Assembly (NCBI GenBank): GCA_021774785.1
Contig: JAJFIQ010000006.1
Coordinates: forward strand, 248,001 to 312,000
DNA from: Emcibacter sp.
Lineage (GTDB): Bacteria; Pseudomonadota; Alphaproteobacteria; Sphingomonadales; Emcibacteraceae
Direction of reading: 5' to 3'
Length of the DNA stretch: 64,000 nucleotides
Part shown: one piece after another, positions 45,523 to 60,099 of the stretch
How the letters are laid out: each line of letters opens with the position of its first letter
Position numbering within the stretch: the stretch's first letter is position 1
Program-made: the position numbers and the translations under genes
Notes under the pieces: model-generated
What the model saw: the letters and a program-made list of their open reading frames with translations, nothing else
Database searches by the model: none
What the model was told of the DNA's origin: nothing

Positions 45523-46362
45523 TTATCCAGCCTTACGAATCTGAGCAACATGATCAGCCGTATTATACATACCGCGCTTTCCCGGTACTGGTTTGAATTT
45601 ATCTGATAATCCCAAAACGGTTTCTGCGGCACCAAGAAACAGGGTACCATCCTCAGGCATTTGCACGCGTAGCCGGTCCAGAATATCGCTCTTTGTTTCC
45701 TGATGGAAATATATCAATACATTACGACAAAAAATCACATCGAATTTGCCAAGTGCTGCATAGTTATCCAGCAAATTATAAGGTTTGTAGGTCACCATTT
45801 TACGGATATCCTCCGAAATCTGCCACATCTCACCGGCCTGTGTGAAATATTTCATCAATAATTTGATGGGCAATCCTCTTTGGACCTCAAACTGTGAATA
45901 GATTCCGGCCTTCGCCTTATCCAGAACCTGCTGGGTCAGATCAGTCCCAAGTATCTCTATTTTCCATCCGCTTAGCTGAGCTTCCATCTCTTTCAGAATA
46001 ATTGCCAGAGAATAAGGTTCCTGTCCTGTTGAGGCGGCGGCGCACCATATACGAATTCGTTTATTTGAAGCACGGGATTTCAAAAGACCGGGTAATACAT
46101 GCTCCTTGAACAGGTCGAAGGGCGTATTGTCGCGGAAAAAGAAAGACTCATTGGTCGTCATAGCATCGGTAATTTCCCGAAGCAGATCTTCCTTACGCCG
46201 CAATCTAACCTCATTAATCAGATCATCCAGGGTTTCCATACCCTTTTTTCGTGCGATAGGGGTAAGACGGCTTTCCAGCAGATATACTTTATCTTCCGAT
46301 AGGACGAGCCCGGACCTCTCTTTCAAGATAGTGCTGAGAAGTTCAAAATCCTCTTTTCTCAT
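45523..46362 (-). CDS. cheR: Chemoreceptor glutamate methyltransferase CheR
   Basis: A 279-aa SAM-dependent methyltransferase. The N-terminal helical domain (RSGLVLSEDKVYLLESRL) precedes the catalytic domain with TNESFFFRD, the SAM motif IWCAAASTGQEPYSLAI near residues 100-116, and FDVIFCRNVLIYF. It methylates receptor glutamates for adaptation. Its ATG overlaps the cheB stop by one base (TAATG). It is the last gene of chpT-cheA-cheW-cheY-cheB-cheR. No MCP gene is in the window. Confidence 0.95.
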   Translation of the reverse strand: MRKEDFELLSTILKERSGLVLSEDKVYLLESRLTPIARKKGMETLDDLINEVRLRRKEDLLREITDAMTTNESFFFRDNTPFDLFKEHVLPGLLKSRASNKRIRIWCAAASTGQEPYSLAIILKEMEAQLSGWKIEILGTDLTQQVLDKAKAGIYSQFEVQRGLPIKLLMKYFTQAGEMWQISEDIRKMVTYKPYNLLDNYAALGKFDVIFCRNVLIYFHQETKSDILDRLRVQMPEDGTLFLGAAETVLGLSDKFKPVPGKRGMYNTADHVAQIRKAG

Positions 46363-47510
46363 TATGCCAGTCCCATCATTTTCTCTTTAATTTTTGAACC
46401 AATTTCATTTAATGGATATACTCCACTGCAAAGGCCAGCGTTGCTGACCGCCCCCGGCATTCCCCATACTACACTCGTTTTTTCATCCTGCGCGATTAAT
46501 TTACCGCCAACTTCCACCAATTTCCGACTAGCTTCAAGGCCATCATGCCCCATACCGGTTAATATAACGGCGAATACCTCAGGCCCATATAGGTCAATAA
46601 GACTTCTGAACATAGGTTCAACAGACGGACGACAAAAATTTTCTGGTTTCTCTTGATTGAGAGAAATAAACTTGATCCCAGATTTATCAACCACTGTCAT
46701 GTGATAATCACCGGGAGCCAGATAAACTTTACCATTTTCAAGCCGGTCGCCATCTTCCGCTTCCTTACAATCAAAACCAGTCGATTGGGTAAGATGTTTT
46801 GCCAAAATATTAGTAAAAGTAGCCGGCATATGCTGCGTGATTAAAATAGGTACATTTACAGAACCCAGATCCTTGAGAACCGCCAGTAACGCCTGCGGGC
46901 CACCTGTGGAACTTCCAATGGCCAATACAGAAGATTTTCCCTTGGAAAACTTGCGTTTTTCAATGCCTTTTCTGGTTTGTACTACGGGCGTGAACTGTTT
47001 ATCAATCAGACTGGTCTTGCCTTTGAAAACTTCACCACCATTTCTTAATCTACTGGCTGCGGCTATACTGATAACCTTACTGATAAGTTCTTCCTGAAAA
47101 CTCTTCGAAGAAGAAATTTCACGGTTACTTGTCGGTTTGGACACATAATCCGTAGCCCCCAAAGATAGGGCCCGCATACTGATTTCTGCATTACGGCTCG
47201 TTAATGTGGATGCCATAATAACCTTAACTTTTGGATCTATATCGAAAAACTGCGGCAATGCGGTCAGACCATCCATTATCGGCATTTCTATATCAAGAAT
47301 AATAACCTCTGGGTCATACCGTTGCATACTTGCCAGAGCCATTTTCCCATTGCCCGCTGTCCCAACGATTTTAATGGCCGGATCTTCCTCAAGCCATCTG
47401 GACATGAGCCCCCTGATTACGGCTGAATCATCGACAACCATCACTCTATATTGGCCACTTCTCGCCACTTGTCCTATACCCCTTTTATCTTTTACAAAAT
47501 TTGAATTCAT
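46362..47510 (-). CDS. cheB: Chemotaxis methylesterase/glutamine deamidase CheB
   Basis: A 382-aa protein. The receiver domain has Asp73 in VIILDIEMPIMDGL, a linker follows, and the CheB methylesterase domain carries the catalytic triad: Ser201 in AIGSSTGGPQAL, His227 in ITQHMPATFT and Asp in ILTGMGHDGLEA. It removes methyl groups placed by CheR and is activated by CheA. It starts two bases after cheY, with its ribosome binding site inside cheY. Confidence 0.95.
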   Translation of the reverse strand: MNSNFVKDKRGIGQVARSGQYRVMVVDDSAVIRGLMSRWLEEDPAIKIVGTAGNGKMALASMQRYDPEVIILDIEMPIMDGLTALPQFFDIDPKVKVIMASTLTSRNAEISMRALSLGATDYVSKPTSNREISSSKSFQEELISKVISIAAASRLRNGGEVFKGKTSLIDKQFTPVVQTRKGIEKRKFSKGKSSVLAIGSSTGGPQALLAVLKDLGSVNVPILITQHMPATFTNILAKHLTQSTGFDCKEAEDGDRLENGKVYLAPGDYHMTVVDKSGIKFISLNQEKPENFCRPSVEPMFRSLIDLYGPEVFAVILTGMGHDGLEASRKLVEVGGKLIAQDEKTSVVWGMPGAVSNAGLCSGVYPLNEIGSKIKEKMMGLA

Positions 47511-47512
47511 TT

Positions 47513-47878
47513 TTAAAGTAATCCCACCTGAGAAAACTTGGATTCAATAATTTCACGGTCGAATGGTTTCATGATATATTCATCCGCACCAGCAGAAATT
47601 GCAGCACTGATATGGCTCATATCATTTTCGGTAGTACAGAATACAACCACTGGCTTGTCACCGCCTTCTGAAGCTCTCAAAGCCTTCAGAAAATCCAGCC
47701 CGTTCATCACTGGCATATTCCAGTCCAGAAGCACAACATCTGGCAAAATTTCATGGCATGAATCTAAGGCATCTTGGCCGTCAACAGCCTCACGAATGTC
47801 AAAATCTAGTTCCTCCAGAATACGACGCGCGACTTTCCTGATCACTTTTGAATCATCTACGACTAAGCAGGATCTCAT
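47513..47878 (-). CDS. cheY: Chemotaxis response regulator CheY
   Basis: A 121-aa single receiver domain. Phosphoacceptor Asp52 is in VVLLDWNMPVMNGLDFL, the acidic pair is in VVDDS, Thr is in VFCTTEND and Lys in YIMKPF. The WNMPVMNGLDFLKALR segment is CheY-typical. Phosphorylated by CheA, it binds the FliM/FliN switch or acts as phosphate sink, and it is the only stand-alone CheY here. GGAGAAA precedes the ATG. Confidence 0.93.
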   Translation of the reverse strand: MRSCLVVDDSKVIRKVARRILEELDFDIREAVDGQDALDSCHEILPDVVLLDWNMPVMNGLDFLKALRASEGGDKPVVVFCTTENDMSHISAAISAGADEYIMKPFDREIIESKFSQVGLL

Positions 47879-47926: not shown

Positions 47927-48379
47927 TTAAGCAGCCGTAGCTTGTCCAATATCAAAATTCAAAAGCTTTTCCACATCAAGAATAACCATCAGTTCGCCCT
48001 TTAGACGGAAGATACCGCCAGAGACATCTTGCCAACAGGATTCCAATGTTACGGGGTTGCGTTCAAATGAGTCTTCCGGAAAGGACATAACATCACCTAC
48101 TGAATCAATCAAAAGGCTATATGGCTCACCTTGATATTCCACAACGATGCTCATGTTTTCACCATCAGCCTCCTGTTCAGCCAGCCCAAGTCTTTTTCTC
48201 AGGTTTATGGCCGTTACAATACGGCCCCGCAGGTTCAGAACACCCGCGACAGCCGGTGGCGCTAGGGGTACAGCTGTGATGCTCTGTTCTGATAATACAT
48301 CATGTACTTCGAGAACCGGAATCCCACATAACTGACCTGCCAGTCTTATCGTTACGAAATCTCTATTTTCATTTTCCAT
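47927..48379 (-). CDS. cheW: Chemotaxis adaptor CheW
   Basis: A 150-aa single CheW domain. Landmarks are FVTIRLAGQLCGIPVLEVHDVL, AGVLNLRGRIVTAINLRKRLGL and SLLIDSVGDVMSFPED. It couples receptors to the CheA P5 domain. AGGTGAAG before the ATG is the ribosome binding site. It lies 23 bases after cheA in the che operon. Confidence 0.95.
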   Translation of the reverse strand: MENENRDFVTIRLAGQLCGIPVLEVHDVLSEQSITAVPLAPPAVAGVLNLRGRIVTAINLRKRLGLAEQEADGENMSIVVEYQGEPYSLLIDSVGDVMSFPEDSFERNPVTLESCWQDVSGGIFRLKGELMVILDVEKLLNFDIGQATAA

Positions 48380-48402: not shown

Positions 48403-51400
48403 TTACGCCGCATTTTGTTTTTTGCTGATCTGATCAACGATGGTCGTCATCAATGTATCCCGTTCAAGTTTAACCACATAATCGTCAAACCCAACTTCAC
48501 GGCCTCGGGCAAAATCTTTCGGCGTATGATGAGAGGACAGGGCAATCATTGGTGTTTTCTGCCAAATGCCGCCTTCACGAACTTCTTCAGCAAAACTAAA
48601 GCCATCCATATCCGGCATCTCAATATCGCTGATAATAATGTCATAATCATTACCTTGCTCGCGAAGAGCCAGAGCCGATGCCCCACTATCCACGGCGGTA
48701 ATTTTATAGCCCGCCGCTGATAGCAATGGTTTGATCATGTTAAGGAAGAATTTACTGTCATCTATAAGCAAAATATGTGGTTTAGCTTCTTCACCTGTAT
48801 GGCCGGATGTACTAGAAGAACCTAACGTTCCGAAGGCCTTTTCAATGTAAAATGCCACATCAATCATTTCTGTCGCATGACCATTGATCACGGCTGTTCC
48901 AACCTGACCATCAATGGCTGATGAAAGTTCAATATTGATATCATCTTCAAGGATATCAATAATTTCATCCACAACAATGCCCATGGACTTATCGCCATCA
49001 GCAAATACTAAAATAGGTTGGCGGCCTTCTGTTTTTAATTGATATGTATTATCCAGACTCACCAACGGCATTAATTGACCGCGGTACTGTACTACTGGCT
49101 TACCATCTGATATTTCGATGGTTTCTACTTCAATTTCTTCCAAACGCGCAACCAACGACAGGGGAACAGCCCGACGATTATTCTCACCAGCTCTGAACAG
49201 AAGAATTGCTTCACGCTCATCAGCCGCTCTGGTCTGTTTCTCTTCCTCAGCACCGAATCCACCAGTGTCAGTTACGCTATCGCTGATTTGATTAGCAATA
49301 CCATTGGGATCAAGAATCATAATAACCTTACCATCGCCAAGAATTGTATTCCCCGCAAAGGTCTGTAAATTTCTGAGGATTGGTGCCACTGGTTTGACCA
49401 CGATTTCTTCAGTATCAAATACTTTATCTACCACAATACCAAATGTAAAAGAGCCCACCTGAGTAATTACGATATAATCATCTTTTTTCTTTTCAGATTC
49501 TTCAGTTGTTTCTTTATCCACCGCAGTCATGCCAAGGATTTCATCAAGCCGAATCAGTGGCAACAACCGATCCCTCAACCGCAATACCGGTGTGTCATTA
49601 ATATGTTCAATACTATGTTCGGAATCTTTGGATGCCCGAACCAGTTCAAGAACGCTTATCTGCGGAATGGCAAATCTGTCATCCCGGCATTTCACGATCA
49701 AAGCTGAAACAATCGCCAATGTCAGAGGGATTTTAATACTGAAGCTGGTGCCTTTTCCTTCAACGGACTTAAGATCAACCGTACCGCCAATTTTTTCAAT
49801 ATTGGTACGTACGACATCCATGCCAACACCGCGACCCGATACTGCAGTTACTTTTTCTGCGGTAGAGAAACCAGCATGAAAGACAAACATCTGAATCTGA
49901 TTGTCCGTCATTTCATCCAGTTCTTCTTCGGTCGCCAAGCCATTTTTTAAGGCCTTGGCTTTCAGTTTTTCAACGGGAATTCCCGCACCATCATCAGTAA
50001 TTTCAATGATGATATGCCCGCCTTCATGGAACGCATTCAGGCGAATGACACCTGTTTCCTTCTTACCGGCGGCAAGACGGTCTGCTGGCATTTCCACGCC
50101 ATGATCAGCGGAGTTTCGTACCATGTGCGTCAGGGGGTCTTTAATCATTTCAAGTACTTGACGGTCAAGTTCCGTATCAGCACCAAGCATCTGAAGGTCT
50201 ATTTTCTTCCCCAGTTCCAGTTGCAAATCACGGATGATGCGTGGCAATTTGGCCCAGGCGTTGCCCACAGGCTGCATGCGGGTTTTCATAACCCCTTCCT
50301 GCAATTCCGTCGTGCATTGACTTAAATGCTGCAATGGAATTGAAAATGCACTGTCATTGCTATTACGCAGAAGCTGCATGAGCTGATTTCGTGTTAAAAC
50401 CAGCTCACTAACCATTGTCATCAGGTCTTCAAGCACTTGCACATTCACCCGAATACTTTGATTGGCAAGGCTACTATCACCCGCCTTAGCATTAGCATTA
50501 GCATTAGCCGCCGCCGCTTTCTTGTCTGATTTTTTGTTTTTTGTGTTAGTTTTTTTGGCAGTTTCAGAAAAAATATTTATGGCTACATCATCATATTCCG
50601 CCAAAACGGCTTCTGCATCCAAAGAAGAAAGATCAACTTCTTCCAACACATCGCCTAATAATTTGCGAATTGTATCATTTTGCTTATCTGTAATTCCATT
50701 TGAAATGAAGGGTTCAAAAGTTGCGGAGACACTGGGTGCTTTCTCTGGTTTTCCAGCAAGATAAGCTGTGAAGAAATCGCCCATCTTTTCTTTGCTTTCT
50801 CTTGTATTAGCACCATCCAGCAAGGTTTTCACAGAAACATCGCCTAGAATACGGTTATGGAACAAATGAATAATAACTTTAATGGCATCAACGCCACCTA
50901 TGCGCGTTAGAATATCTTCCTTATCATCTTCAGCTGTTACGTCTTCCTCCTCGTCATCATCAGGACCGGGGGCAGCTGCAAAAGCCGCTTCCAATTCCTC
51001 TAATGAAACCTGCCCAGGCAAAACATTTTCAGATTGTGTAATTTCAGGCATCTCTATGGCTTCTTCTACGGGAGCATCTTCCACAGGAGAAACTGCCGCA
51101 ACAGCGTCACCATAAGCAACCTCATTCAGTAGATTGATTATTTCGGTGTCATCACCCTGTGGTTCTTCCTGTGTTTCTTCCAGTCCTGCGAGAATTTCCT
51201 TGATCCGGTCTAGGGCGGATAAAATCAATGTTACTGAATCTGACGTAACAACCAATTCCCCGTCGCGATATTTACCTAATACATTTTCACCGGCATGGGC
51301 TACTGATTCTAATCGGGGAAGTCCAAGAAAACCACAAGTCCCTTTTATGGTATGAACCAGACGAAATATATTATCCAAGATGGGTTTATTCGTCGGATCC

Positions 51401-51483
51401 TGTTCAAGGGTAACAAGTTCAACGTCTACAACGTCGATACTTTCATTGGTTTCTGTCAGAAATTCGTTTAGCAAATCATCCAT
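48403..51483 (-). CDS. cheA: Chemotaxis kinase CheA: hybrid with globin-like insert, two CheW-like domains and receiver
   Basis: A 1026-aa kinase from the ATG at 51483. Domains (approximate residues): Hpt 1-105 with His44 in LVHTIKGTCGF; acidic linker; a truncated-haemoglobin-like stretch 191-300; Ala/Asn linker; P3 dimerisation 340-410; HATPase 415-590 with HMVRNSADHG, DDGAGIP and GRGVGMDVV; CheW-like P5 590-735; a second CheW-like domain 755-885; receiver 905-1020 with Asp953 in IISDIEMPDMDGF. Canonical CheA is about 650 aa. The CheY-binding P2 domain is not recognised, and the globin-like segment occupies its place. The C-terminal receiver could act as an internal phosphate sink. A TTG at 51492 is an alternative start. 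Confidence 0.93.
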   Translation of the reverse strand: MDDLLNEFLTETNESIDVVDVELVTLEQDPTNKPILDNIFRLVHTIKGTCGFLGLPRLESVAHAGENVLGKYRDGELVVTSDSVTLILSALDRIKEILAGLEETQEEPQGDDTEIINLLNEVAYGDAVAAVSPVEDAPVEEAIEMPEITQSENVLPGQVSLEELEAAFAAAPGPDDDEEEDVTAEDDKEDILTRIGGVDAIKVIIHLFHNRILGDVSVKTLLDGANTRESKEKMGDFFTAYLAGKPEKAPSVSATFEPFISNGITDKQNDTIRKLLGDVLEEVDLSSLDAEAVLAEYDDVAINIFSETAKKTNTKNKKSDKKAAAANANANAKAGDSSLANQSIRVNVQVLEDLMTMVSELVLTRNQLMQLLRNSNDSAFSIPLQHLSQCTTELQEGVMKTRMQPVGNAWAKLPRIIRDLQLELGKKIDLQMLGADTELDRQVLEMIKDPLTHMVRNSADHGVEMPADRLAAGKKETGVIRLNAFHEGGHIIIEITDDGAGIPVEKLKAKALKNGLATEEELDEMTDNQIQMFVFHAGFSTAEKVTAVSGRGVGMDVVRTNIEKIGGTVDLKSVEGKGTSFSIKIPLTLAIVSALIVKCRDDRFAIPQISVLELVRASKDSEHSIEHINDTPVLRLRDRLLPLIRLDEILGMTAVDKETTEESEKKKDDYIVITQVGSFTFGIVVDKVFDTEEIVVKPVAPILRNLQTFAGNTILGDGKVIMILDPNGIANQISDSVTDTGGFGAEEEKQTRAADEREAILLFRAGENNRRAVPLSLVARLEEIEVETIEISDGKPVVQYRGQLMPLVSLDNTYQLKTEGRQPILVFADGDKSMGIVVDEIIDILEDDINIELSSAIDGQVGTAVINGHATEMIDVAFYIEKAFGTLGSSSTSGHTGEEAKPHILLIDDSKFFLNMIKPLLSAAGYKITAVDSGASALALREQGNDYDIIISDIEMPDMDGFSFAEEVREGGIWQKTPMIALSSHHTPKDFARGREVGFDDYVVKLERDTLMTTIVDQISKKQNAA

Positions 51484-51654
51484 AATTTTCAACCTTTTCT
51501 ACGCAACATGAATAGTTACAATCCTTCACTCTTTAACAAGATCGGGCAAATTGGTTAAAAAGCTGTAAAAAACGGTAAAATGATTAGGGAATTATAATAA
51601 AAACTTTTAAATCCTTTATCTGAACCACGCTAAAGGTGGCCAGGCTTCACAATT

Positions 51655-52290
51655 TCATCTTTCCTGATAGGCCATATGAAGTGAAAAACTTTGTTCATTA
51701 TGCTGTAAATATTCAATTTTGCTATCAAGTTTCCGGGCAACATGGGCCGCGAGAAACGCCGGAGCTGATTTAGCCTCTATATTTTCCACCGGCGCTTCGC
51801 CCAAAATTGCAAGTCGGATAGCGTCTTGAAAAATAACCTTATCCCCGTGGATGGTTACGGTAACATCTGTCACGGGTGATTGCTCATTGATCTCGATAAG
51901 TAGCTTACCCCCCCTGATCAGGGTTTCTCCGGCAACCAGAACCATATTCAGCATCAGCTTCAAGGCATCCTTATCCATGCCACCCACATTGGATTGCCAC
52001 GACAGATTAATATTTCCAGAGCCATACAGGCCGCGAATGGCATTTTCTGCTTCGCTGAGGGGAACCTTTTCACCAAAACCACCCCCGGCCCCAAAAGACA
52101 GCCGGAAAAATTTAAGTTTGGCAGAAGTTACTTCGGCACTTTGGCCCAGAAGTTTCATCACCTCGACGCGCATCACTTCATCATCTTCATCGCCCAGAAT
52201 TTCAAGTCCGTTGGCGATAGCTCCCACCGGACTGATCAAATCGTGGCAAAGACGTGAACACAACAAAGCCGAAAACTCAATATCATCCAT
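51655..52290 (-). CDS. chpT: Histidine phosphotransferase ChpT
   Basis: About 211 aa from the ATG at 52290. The signature LLCSRLCHDLISPVGAIANGLEIL places the phosphorylated His at residue 16. The rest is a degenerate HATPase-like fold (SAKLKFFRLSFGAGGGFG, DKDALKLMLNMVLVA) as in Caulobacter ChpT, which relays phosphate from CckA to CtrA and CpdR. A longer upstream start (to 52347) lacks family support. It is the first gene upstream of cheA on the same strand (about 170-base gap), so cell-cycle relay and chemotaxis genes are adjacent. cckA is not in the window. Confidence 0.9.
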   Translation of the reverse strand: MDDIEFSALLCSRLCHDLISPVGAIANGLEILGDEDDEVMRVEVMKLLGQSAEVTSAKLKFFRLSFGAGGGFGEKVPLSEAENAIRGLYGSGNINLSWQSNVGGMDKDALKLMLNMVLVAGETLIRGGKLLIEINEQSPVTDVTVTIHGDKVIFQDAIRLAILGEAPVENIEAKSAPAFLAAHVARKLDSKIEYLQHNEQSFSLHMAYQER

Positions 52291-52385
52291 GAAACAGGGT
52301 CTTTCTTTTATAAGGTGACAATTTCTTGTCTGAACATATAATACCAATCTGACAAAAACAATTAATACTTCACAGGAAAATATCC

Positions 52386-59727: not shown

Positions 59728-60099
59728 ATGGATCAGAAATCACTCTATGAACGTCTGGGCGGGTATGATGGTATTACAGCTTTCGCCAACAATCTTTTGC
59801 CCCGCTTGCAAGAAGACCCTCAATTGGGCCGCTTCTGGCAAAATCGTGGTGCCGATGGCATTGCAAGAGAAAAGCAATTACTCATTGACTACCTATCCGC
59901 TAACGCCGGTGGACCGCTCTATTACACGGGTCGCGATATGCTGACAGCCCATAAGGGTATGAAAATCAGTGAAAGTGACTGGTCTGTATTCATCGGCCAT
60001 GCAGGTGACACTTTCGTAGCCTTAGAAGTTCCGGCACAGGAATGTGATGATGTGGTTGCCTTTGTCCTCAGCCTGAAAGATGACATCGTCGAGGCATAG
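59728..60099 (+). CDS. Truncated haemoglobin, group 1 type
   Basis: A 123-aa 2-on-2 globin. LYERLGGYDGITAF forms helices A/B, PQLGRFW and LLIDYLSANAGGPLYYTGRDM lead to the proximal His75 in MLTAHKGMKISESDW. The B10 position (FANNLLPRL) is not Tyr but Asn-type, unlike classical NO-dioxygenase trHbN. It probably binds O2 or NO. It begins 180 bases from the kinase gene and nine bases before the GST-like gene, so it is likely cotranscribed with the latter. A degenerate relative of this fold is embedded in CheA. Confidence 0.92.
   Translation: MDQKSLYERLGGYDGITAFANNLLPRLQEDPQLGRFWQNRGADGIAREKQLLIDYLSANAGGPLYYTGRDMLTAHKGMKISESDWSVFIGHAGDTFVALEVPAQECDDVVAFVLSLKDDIVEA

Follow-up and report, generated by a model that had tools for sequence, protein, structure and literature searches.

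What can a globin do inside CheA, a histidine kinase described as having no sensor domain of its own (available part of PMC10782961), and does it still carry haem there? The question is raised by the cheA gene at 48403..51483, minus strand, of a 64,000-nucleotide stretch of DNA from Emcibacter sp. (GenBank assembly GCA_021774785.1, contig JAJFIQ010000006.1, positions 248,001 to 312,000), the whole of which is called here the window. Its product has the order Hpt - linker - globin - H-kinase_dim - HATPase_c - CheW - CheW - REC, the last being a receiver domain, and the globin, at 50527..50940 on the minus strand (residues 185-322), stands between P1 (Hpt) and the dimerisation domain P3 (H-kinase_dim). 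It is a group-1 truncated globin in which the proximal haem ligand, the histidine at position F8, is replaced by phenylalanine. The reading to which we give an even chance is that a former haem gas-sensor module has become a haem-free regulatory domain of CheA, kept under purifying selection in a linker that has no P2, the domain at which CheY and CheB would dock.

A truncated globin within CheA

The protein is a CheA by the domains that Pfam recognises in it, Hpt, dimerisation, HATPase_c and CheW all being present. The initial annotation, made from the letters alone, had proposed that a truncated-haemoglobin-like domain is embedded in this kinase, and five tests bear the proposal out. With the PF01152 profile (hmmscan) the whole CheA scores 27.0 bits and the segment alone 32.3 bits (E=1.2e-7), the curated cut-off being 21, and the match spans profile positions 5-119 of 121. 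A phmmer search of PDB sequences with the domain returns entries of trHbN, the truncated haemoglobin (trHb) of Mycobacterium tuberculosis also called HbN or GlbN, at E=3.2e-6 to 1.2e-5. The family profile A3, made from the CheA globins of 14 family members, matches 20 distinct PDB sequences at E<=0.001 (best 5.6e-11), and all 20 are named haemoglobin, globin, cyanoglobin or algal THB. Aligned by hhalign with a profile of eight stand-alone trHbs, A3 reaches a probability of 98.6 (E=5.9e-16). Finally, the AlphaFold model of the segment has a predicted local distance difference test score (pLDDT) of 89.4 and a predicted template-modelling (TM) score of 0.83, and its top Foldseek match is trHbN itself (1s56, E=1.4e-5, TM 0.73/0.78). 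Neither a lack of globin matches nor a P2-like or disordered predicted fold was found, and the sequence strings on which the annotation had leaned (IGG..AI, FHNRILGD, KMGDFFTAYLAG and NGIT) are all in place.

The VIA comparison places the domain within the globins in more detail. Its top 19 rows are group-1 truncated haemoglobins (Z 15.4-16.4, root-mean-square deviation 2.1-2.9, 115-122 residues aligned), while the lower rows hold group II proteins (Z about 12.5-14.5), classical globins (about 9.6-12.8) and a few group-1 entries (10.8-13.7). The domain has named relatives in 14 metagenome-assembled genomes labelled Emcibacter, Emcibacteraceae, Alphaproteobacteria and, in one case, Kordiimonas. 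The domain shares with trHbN the fold, the length, the Gly-Gly opening and the order of helices. It differs in being embedded in a kinase, in having no proximal histidine, and in two further pocket positions, B10 (His in place of Tyr) and E11 (Met in place of Gln).

Haem-ligand positions and selection

The annotation had set Phe259 (codon 50716..50718, minus strand) opposite F8 and a histidine, which is His212 (codon 50857..50859, minus strand), opposite B10, and this numbering is exact once alphaproteobacterial trHbs join the alignment. If M. tuberculosis HbN, with its shorter F region, is the sole partner in the alignment, Phe262 comes to lie opposite His81, the residue being Phe in both cases. 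The proximal position was then read across 102 aligned globin domains, 53 from CheA, four fused to CheW and 45 others; loci L059-L072 were omitted, 13 of these 14 duplicating contigs already included, which L068 does not. The F8 histidine is present in all 45 domains outside CheA and CheW, in 13 of the 53 in CheA and in none of the four CheW fusions. Phenylalanine takes its place in 27 of the CheA globins, namely in every one of the 22 from f1, the family of the window, in two each of f94 and f111, and in one of f145. Five others, all of family f44, have a gap there, and the remaining eight, one of them a fragment, have Ala, Gly, Ser, Met, Leu or Ile. Position E11 is Met, Ile or Val in the 22 CheA globins of f1. 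If true, this mixture, with the ligand present in some CheA globins and missing in others, would offer a natural series leading from a haem sensor to a haem-free one.

Judged from these residues, the globin of the window probably holds no haem. The two histidines that it does contain, His209 and His212, speak on the other side, since both are invariant across the 14 sequences of the A3 alignment, the predicted fold is intact, and distal ligation of haem by His212 is conceivable in principle. A haem bound through one of them, or through other ligands, would make the domain an unusual gas or redox sensor. This is highly improbable in our estimation: F8 is Phe in 22 of 22 family rows, where E11 is also changed, the window's domain has no further histidine, and B10 is Ala in six rows of f5, f7 and f8 (L028-L030, L056-L058), though His209 is retained there.

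Loss of the ligand has not been followed by decay of the domain. The ratio of non-synonymous to synonymous substitution rates (dN/dS) was sought for 11 pairs of genes, of which three were saturated in dS and gave no globin value, and L009 was used in two pairs; the P1 figures for L046 and L040 were set aside as unreliable, their anchor being misplaced. Three f1 pairs with unsaturated dS give 0.06, 0.11 and 0.13 for the globin, against 0.02-0.04 for the kinase part; the f1 pair that includes the window (L001/L003) gives 0.10 against 0.07, at a dS near 2. One f5 pair gives 0.05 against 0.01, two f44 pairs 0.04 and 0.17 against 0.03 and 0.10, and the His-bearing pair L040/L042 0.09 against 0.03. 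The haem-less CheA globin is under purifying selection, weaker than that acting on the kinase part. A passive leftover that merely lengthens the linker would agree with a dN/dS that, wherever it could be calculated, is higher for the globin than for the kinase part, with linker lengths that vary freely and with the absence of the globin in single members of two genera. It is nevertheless very unlikely, as the seven His-less pairs that gave a value (the one with dS near 2 among them) have dN/dS of 0.04-0.17, the HLFHNR stretch, a Lys and a Glu are invariant in the A3 alignment of the family, and, of the eight families sampled in the window's order, five have the domain.

Ligand-binding haem-less globin folds occur in signalling proteins. 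The haem pocket could thus have been taken over by some other small ligand, a fatty acid for instance, and the domain would then sense a different cue; a fold kept under purifying selection after the haem ligands were lost agrees with this, whereas a Phe at F8 would be apt to occupy the pocket itself, and we give the idea only a small chance.

The reading of a haem-free regulatory domain derived from a sensor runs as follows. The CheA globin would descend from haem-binding trHbs, a group-1 member of which would have been inserted into the disordered P1-P3 linker of a P2-less, F5-like CheA. The CheAs of other alphaproteobacterial families that keep the F8 histidine would be plausible built-in sensors of O2 or NO, giving the kinase an input without a receptor. 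The form in the window seems to be the derived, haem-less one because His-bearing versions occupy the same place in the CheAs of other families, and the ligand would have been lost in its lineage before the family diversified. Since the usual gas sensing would be impossible in this lineage, the retained and constrained fold would therefore act without haem, perhaps by tethering P1 and tuning its access to the kinase domain (P4) or to CheY and CheB, or alternatively by packing against the receptor array. The scheme is weakened in that it presumes both haem binding by the His-bearing CheAs and a direction of change, haem first and its loss within CheA afterwards.

A parallel exists in the stressosome, where haem and non-haem globin sensors are found within one protein family (available part of PMC9237108). 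The RsbR sensors resemble the present case in that the globin binds haem in Vibrio, is called non-heme in Bacillus and is coupled to a kinase switch (same source). They differ in having a globin of the globin-coupled-sensor type and in belonging to a different signalling machine.

The P1-P3 linker and its conserved motif

The kinase that received the globin is of a known kind. F5-class CheAs, represented in Azospirillum, Caulobacter, Rhodospirillum and Azorhizobium, have two CheW domains (99% of the class) and often REC, and over half of the CheAs surveyed in the same work have no P2 (available part of PMC10782961). The window CheA has in common with them the core domain order, two CheW stretches, the C-terminal REC (both by Pfam) and the lack of a recognisable P2. 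It departs from them in its globin, the auxiliary domains described there being P2, REC and CheC/CheX, and the words 'globin' and 'heme' being absent from the main text of PMC10782961. F5-like, or class I, refers here to similarity to the kinase core of the window CheA and to length, rather than to the published F-class models; one locus (L088) could not be placed in a class in this way.

The annotation had seen the globin as lying where P2 is expected and as possibly a repurposed docking domain. In 32 CheAs with the globin, 243-319 residues separate the P1 histidine from P3. Without the globin the spacing is 136-227 residues in 60 of 62 class I CheAs, and the two outliers (L124, with 260, and L114, with 345) have disordered-looking linkers. 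Hpt and H-kinase_dim were recognised in each of the 112 P1-P3 segments; Bac_globin matches 25 of them at E<=0.001, 32 rows being globin-bearing by the CheA-globin profile, and the P2 models match none of the 112 at the same threshold. Within the window CheA no match to PF07194 or PF09078 was obtained between P1 and P3. Globin-less CheAs of the same kind show only a disordered-looking linker at the globin's place, while a domain-like stretch was seen by eye between P1 and P3 in 16 of 18 non-class-I CheAs. The linker lengths and the lack of P2-model matches in the 112 segments make insertion into a P2-less linker, rather than substitution for P2, the best reading of the globin. Of the earlier reading, the truncated-globin fold without a proximal histidine is supported, and the repurposed docking domain is not. 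Substitution of P2 by the globin was downgraded as a candidate, the globin-less relatives showing no P2.

The absence of P2 has a weak side. The Pfam P2 models are insensitive, the putative P2 of nine class II CheAs matching CheY-binding in only five (best E 0.0024), and for that reason the case for 'no P2' draws in part on the length and composition of the linkers. The PDB yielded no match to a profile of class II P2 regions, and a single class II P2 region gave a chance-level match only. Besides, in the one CheA read from family f3 (L201, genome G033) the long insert is neither clearly globin nor clearly disordered, which also blurs the reading of an insert in a disordered linker. This insert follows the linker motif described below, looks helical and is unscored by the globin profiles; it may be a more decayed globin.

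The linker holds, next to the globin, a better candidate for docking. Class I linkers are otherwise unalignable, and a motif, typically PGEVSLEELEAAFxxAPGPE, stands out in 45 of 111 of them, against a mean of 0.02 (highest 1) in shuffled linkers and against none of 17 class II linkers; since these same linkers had been inspected before the pattern was devised, the count is descriptive. In the window it is the 23-residue stretch LPGQVSLEELEAAFAAAPGPDDD (50953..51021, minus strand, residues 158-180), in which many positions are invariant over 14 family members. It is predicted with low confidence (block pLDDT about 64) to form a short helix at 161-169, in the numbering from MDDLL, within a disordered stretch. 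The N-terminal helix of FliM binds CheY through a motif of the type LSQxEIDxLL, and VSLEELEAAF of the window motif, when set by eye beside VLDQTEIDSLL of the FliM of the same genome, resembles it. CheY and CheB, if they dock at all, could do so at this adjacent FliM-helix-like motif PGQVSLEELEAAF..APGP, and we propose as a hypothesis, from sequence likeness, that in the window's order it is a better CheY-docking candidate than the globin. A search of the open-access literature for a CheY-binding linear motif in CheA gave nothing relevant. The motif could be a handle on how P2-less CheAs dock response regulators.

The distribution of the motif bears on what the globin does. Within the order it is present in all 10 globin-bearing members among L001-L058, in seven of the nine globin-bearing L200-L209 (the other two being one residue off the pattern) and in all seven globin-less members (L210-L216). 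In genus g5 one CheA (L215, genome G022) has no globin, while six congeners have one; in genus g21 the same holds for L213 (genome G049), with two globin-bearing congeners; both keep the motif. Outside the order none of 22 globin CheAs bears it, 11 with the F8 histidine and 11 without, which tells against a general role, and the motif is therefore not the docking site in all globin CheAs. A globin that served as a CheY/CheB docking platform in lieu of P2 would fit these last proteins, in which it could in principle dock, as well as its position, since P2 of E. coli CheA likewise lies between P1 and P3. We hold it to be unlikely, given the sister globin-less CheAs with a linker and no recognisable P2, and given the g5 and g21 members that have dropped the globin and retained the motif. 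Moreover, globins occur nested in CheW of two CheAs (L041, L039) and C-terminal on four CheW proteins (L083-L086), and for this reason control of the kinase or of the array is favoured over CheY docking.

Other short motifs were observed in the linkers. The first motif is present also in the class I linkers L110, L119, L133, L160 and L162, with two copies each in L160 and L162. A second kind (like DEHGFVPVPA or GFPVAAELLAEFE) replaces it in L112, L121, L123, L129, L135, L151, L161, L174 and L177, twice over in L121, L123 and L174, and a loose pattern counts it in 10 of 111 class I linkers.

Distribution, ancestry and genomic setting

The CheA globin is not peculiar to one genome. Sampling of 60 genomes from the window's order gave 37 in which a CheA frame or fragment bears it. 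These comprise 14 of 16 genomes of the genus, 8 of 16 from elsewhere in the family and 15 of 28 from the remainder of the order. The two genomes of the genus that lack it are 67% and 69% complete, and of the eight family members lacking it six have no CheA match whatever. Five families of the order have it (f1, f2, f5, f7 and f8). Reading of four CheAs from f4 did not reveal it, and the f6 genomes gave no match in the globin search of the order.

In a class-wide sample that includes the window genome, PF02895 finds CheA in 89 of 192 genomes, at 118 places. Of these, 94 were read (80 as L100-L179 and 14 with the globin), the remaining 24 being mostly of class II length; 76 are class I (F5-like, mostly 870-1200 amino acids) and 18 are others (class II). 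The globin is borne by 14 of the 76, or by 13 of 75 when the window's own is set aside. Eight of the 14 keep the F8 histidine (L039, L040, L041, L042, L044, L045, L047, L051) and six do not (L001, L046, L048, L049, L050, L089), while no globin-profile match over 5.5 bits was found in L100-L179. The 13 distant globin CheAs that were scanned all have Hpt, H-kinase_dim, HATPase_c and CheW by Pfam, and 11 have REC, the two that do not (L082, L039) being short frames; two globins, in L089 and L079, fall under the PF01152 cut-off and were identified by the CheA-globin profile.

If true, the presence of a P1-P3 globin in about one sixth of the F5-like CheAs read would represent a receptor-independent input to bacterial chemotaxis. 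The alphaproteobacterial F5-like CheAs would then form a kinase family with a built-in truncated-globin sensor. Through it, O2 or NO would control the kinase directly in the haem-binding members, with no receptor between; in several lineages, that of the window included, haem would have been lost to leave a haem-free control domain; and, within this order, CheY would dock at the FliM-like linker motif. We take this wider picture seriously, while judging it somewhat more likely to be wrong than right.

In a 397-genome sample of the phylum Pseudomonadota, five longer globin-matching frames from outside the class (L093-L097) were opened among the matches listed (E<=1e-6), and none has the P1 or ATPase motifs of CheA; other longer frames (e.g. 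of 531 and 383 amino acids) were left unopened, and absence outside the class is not shown. A search of viral contigs with the CheA globin domain gave no relative. Plasmid records hold CheA matches and separate trHbs, none with one place covering 80% of the P1-globin-P3 query.

Two trees bear on the ancestry of the globin in CheA. That of the CheA core (95 rows, by a quick method) has no open reading frames under 600 amino acids except L128, which leaves out L042, L051 and L078, and keeps four class II rows. On it the globin label needs eight changes, and the ten order members form one clade (support 98). The lineages with Phe at F8 (f1, f94, f111, f145) are not grouped, many intervening branches having support of only 80-93; histidine would therefore have been replaced by Phe more than once, if the ancestor had it, as we infer. 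The globin tree (75 rows and 128 columns, after 19 divergent or distant loci and eight near-copies were dropped) groups 36 of 43 CheA domains (support 89) and leaves seven among the stand-alone trHbs. One main origin with losses plus further insertions is allowed by these trees, which do not settle it. The reading of a common ancestral sensor is opposed here by the few columns and long branches of the globin tree, in which long haem-less branches may attract each other; because of that weakness, and because the CheA tree needs eight changes, gain and loss are indistinguishable and the globin may have been inserted several times.

Further globins were found attached to chemotaxis proteins. Two CheAs that also bear the globin between P1 and P3 have a second, His-bearing one nested in their first CheW domain (L041, residues 709-824; L039, residues 659-775). 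Four CheW proteins of family f112 have a C-terminal globin (L083:2979-4184:+, L084:3830-4939:-, L085:4046-5143:-, L086:3863-5044:-) with Ser or Tyr at F8; Pfam confirms the CheW domain in all four, the globin of L083 passes PF01152, and those of L084, L085 and L086 were matched only by the CheA-globin profile. A class I CheA (L115, genome G268) from a genome with such a fusion has no globin.

One chemoreceptor (L074:3965-6829:+) has a His-bearing truncated globin at its N-terminus together with PAS and an MCP signalling domain, and L053:2983-4032:+, which ends at the contig end, is the globin and PAS part of a similar receptor. The former resembles the Bac_globin-PAS-MCP of Corallococcus coralloides (available part of PMC6194562). 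There, as in HemAT, a globin is tied to chemotaxis and oxygen sensing has been proposed or shown (same source). In those proteins, as far as that source covers them, the globin is on the receptor, whereas here it is on the kinase and, in the window, without the haem ligand. The annotation knew of no description of such a CheA, and none of a globin-bearing CheA was found by us in the open-access literature, the scope excluding subscription papers, supplements and database annotations. Truncated globins and CheA are both known kinds; as far as could be seen, their combination and the haem-less form are undescribed.

The other parts of cheA and the genes beside it are all on the minus strand. The open reading frame of cheA reaches an upstream TTG (48403-51492, 1029 amino acids from the TTG), and the conserved N-terminus MDDLL starts at the ATG at 51483. 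P1 is at 51199..51477 (residues 6-98; PF01627, 54.4 bits), with the phosphorylation-site motif HTIKG at residues 47-51. After the globin, Pfam places P3 at 50281..50463 (residues 344-404), the P4 kinase domain (HATPase_c) at 49720..50139 (residues 452-591), the first CheW-like domain at 49288..49704 (residues 597-735, the best of the two CheW stretches counted) and the receiver at 48445..48774 (residues 907-1016). Downstream of cheA follow cheW (47927..48379; PF01584), a cheY-like response regulator gene (47513..47878; PF00072), cheB (46362..47510; PF01339, PF00072) and cheR (45523..46362; PF01739, PF03705). Directly upstream is a histidine phosphotransferase-domain gene (51655-52347; PF10090, presumably of the ChpT type).

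The genome of the window has a second, shorter CheA (L106), 12 receptors above the Pfam cut-off and FliM. A stand-alone truncated globin of 123 amino acids is encoded in the window at 59728-60099, on the plus strand, and keeps the F8 histidine (AHKGM); another is found elsewhere in the same genome (L196).

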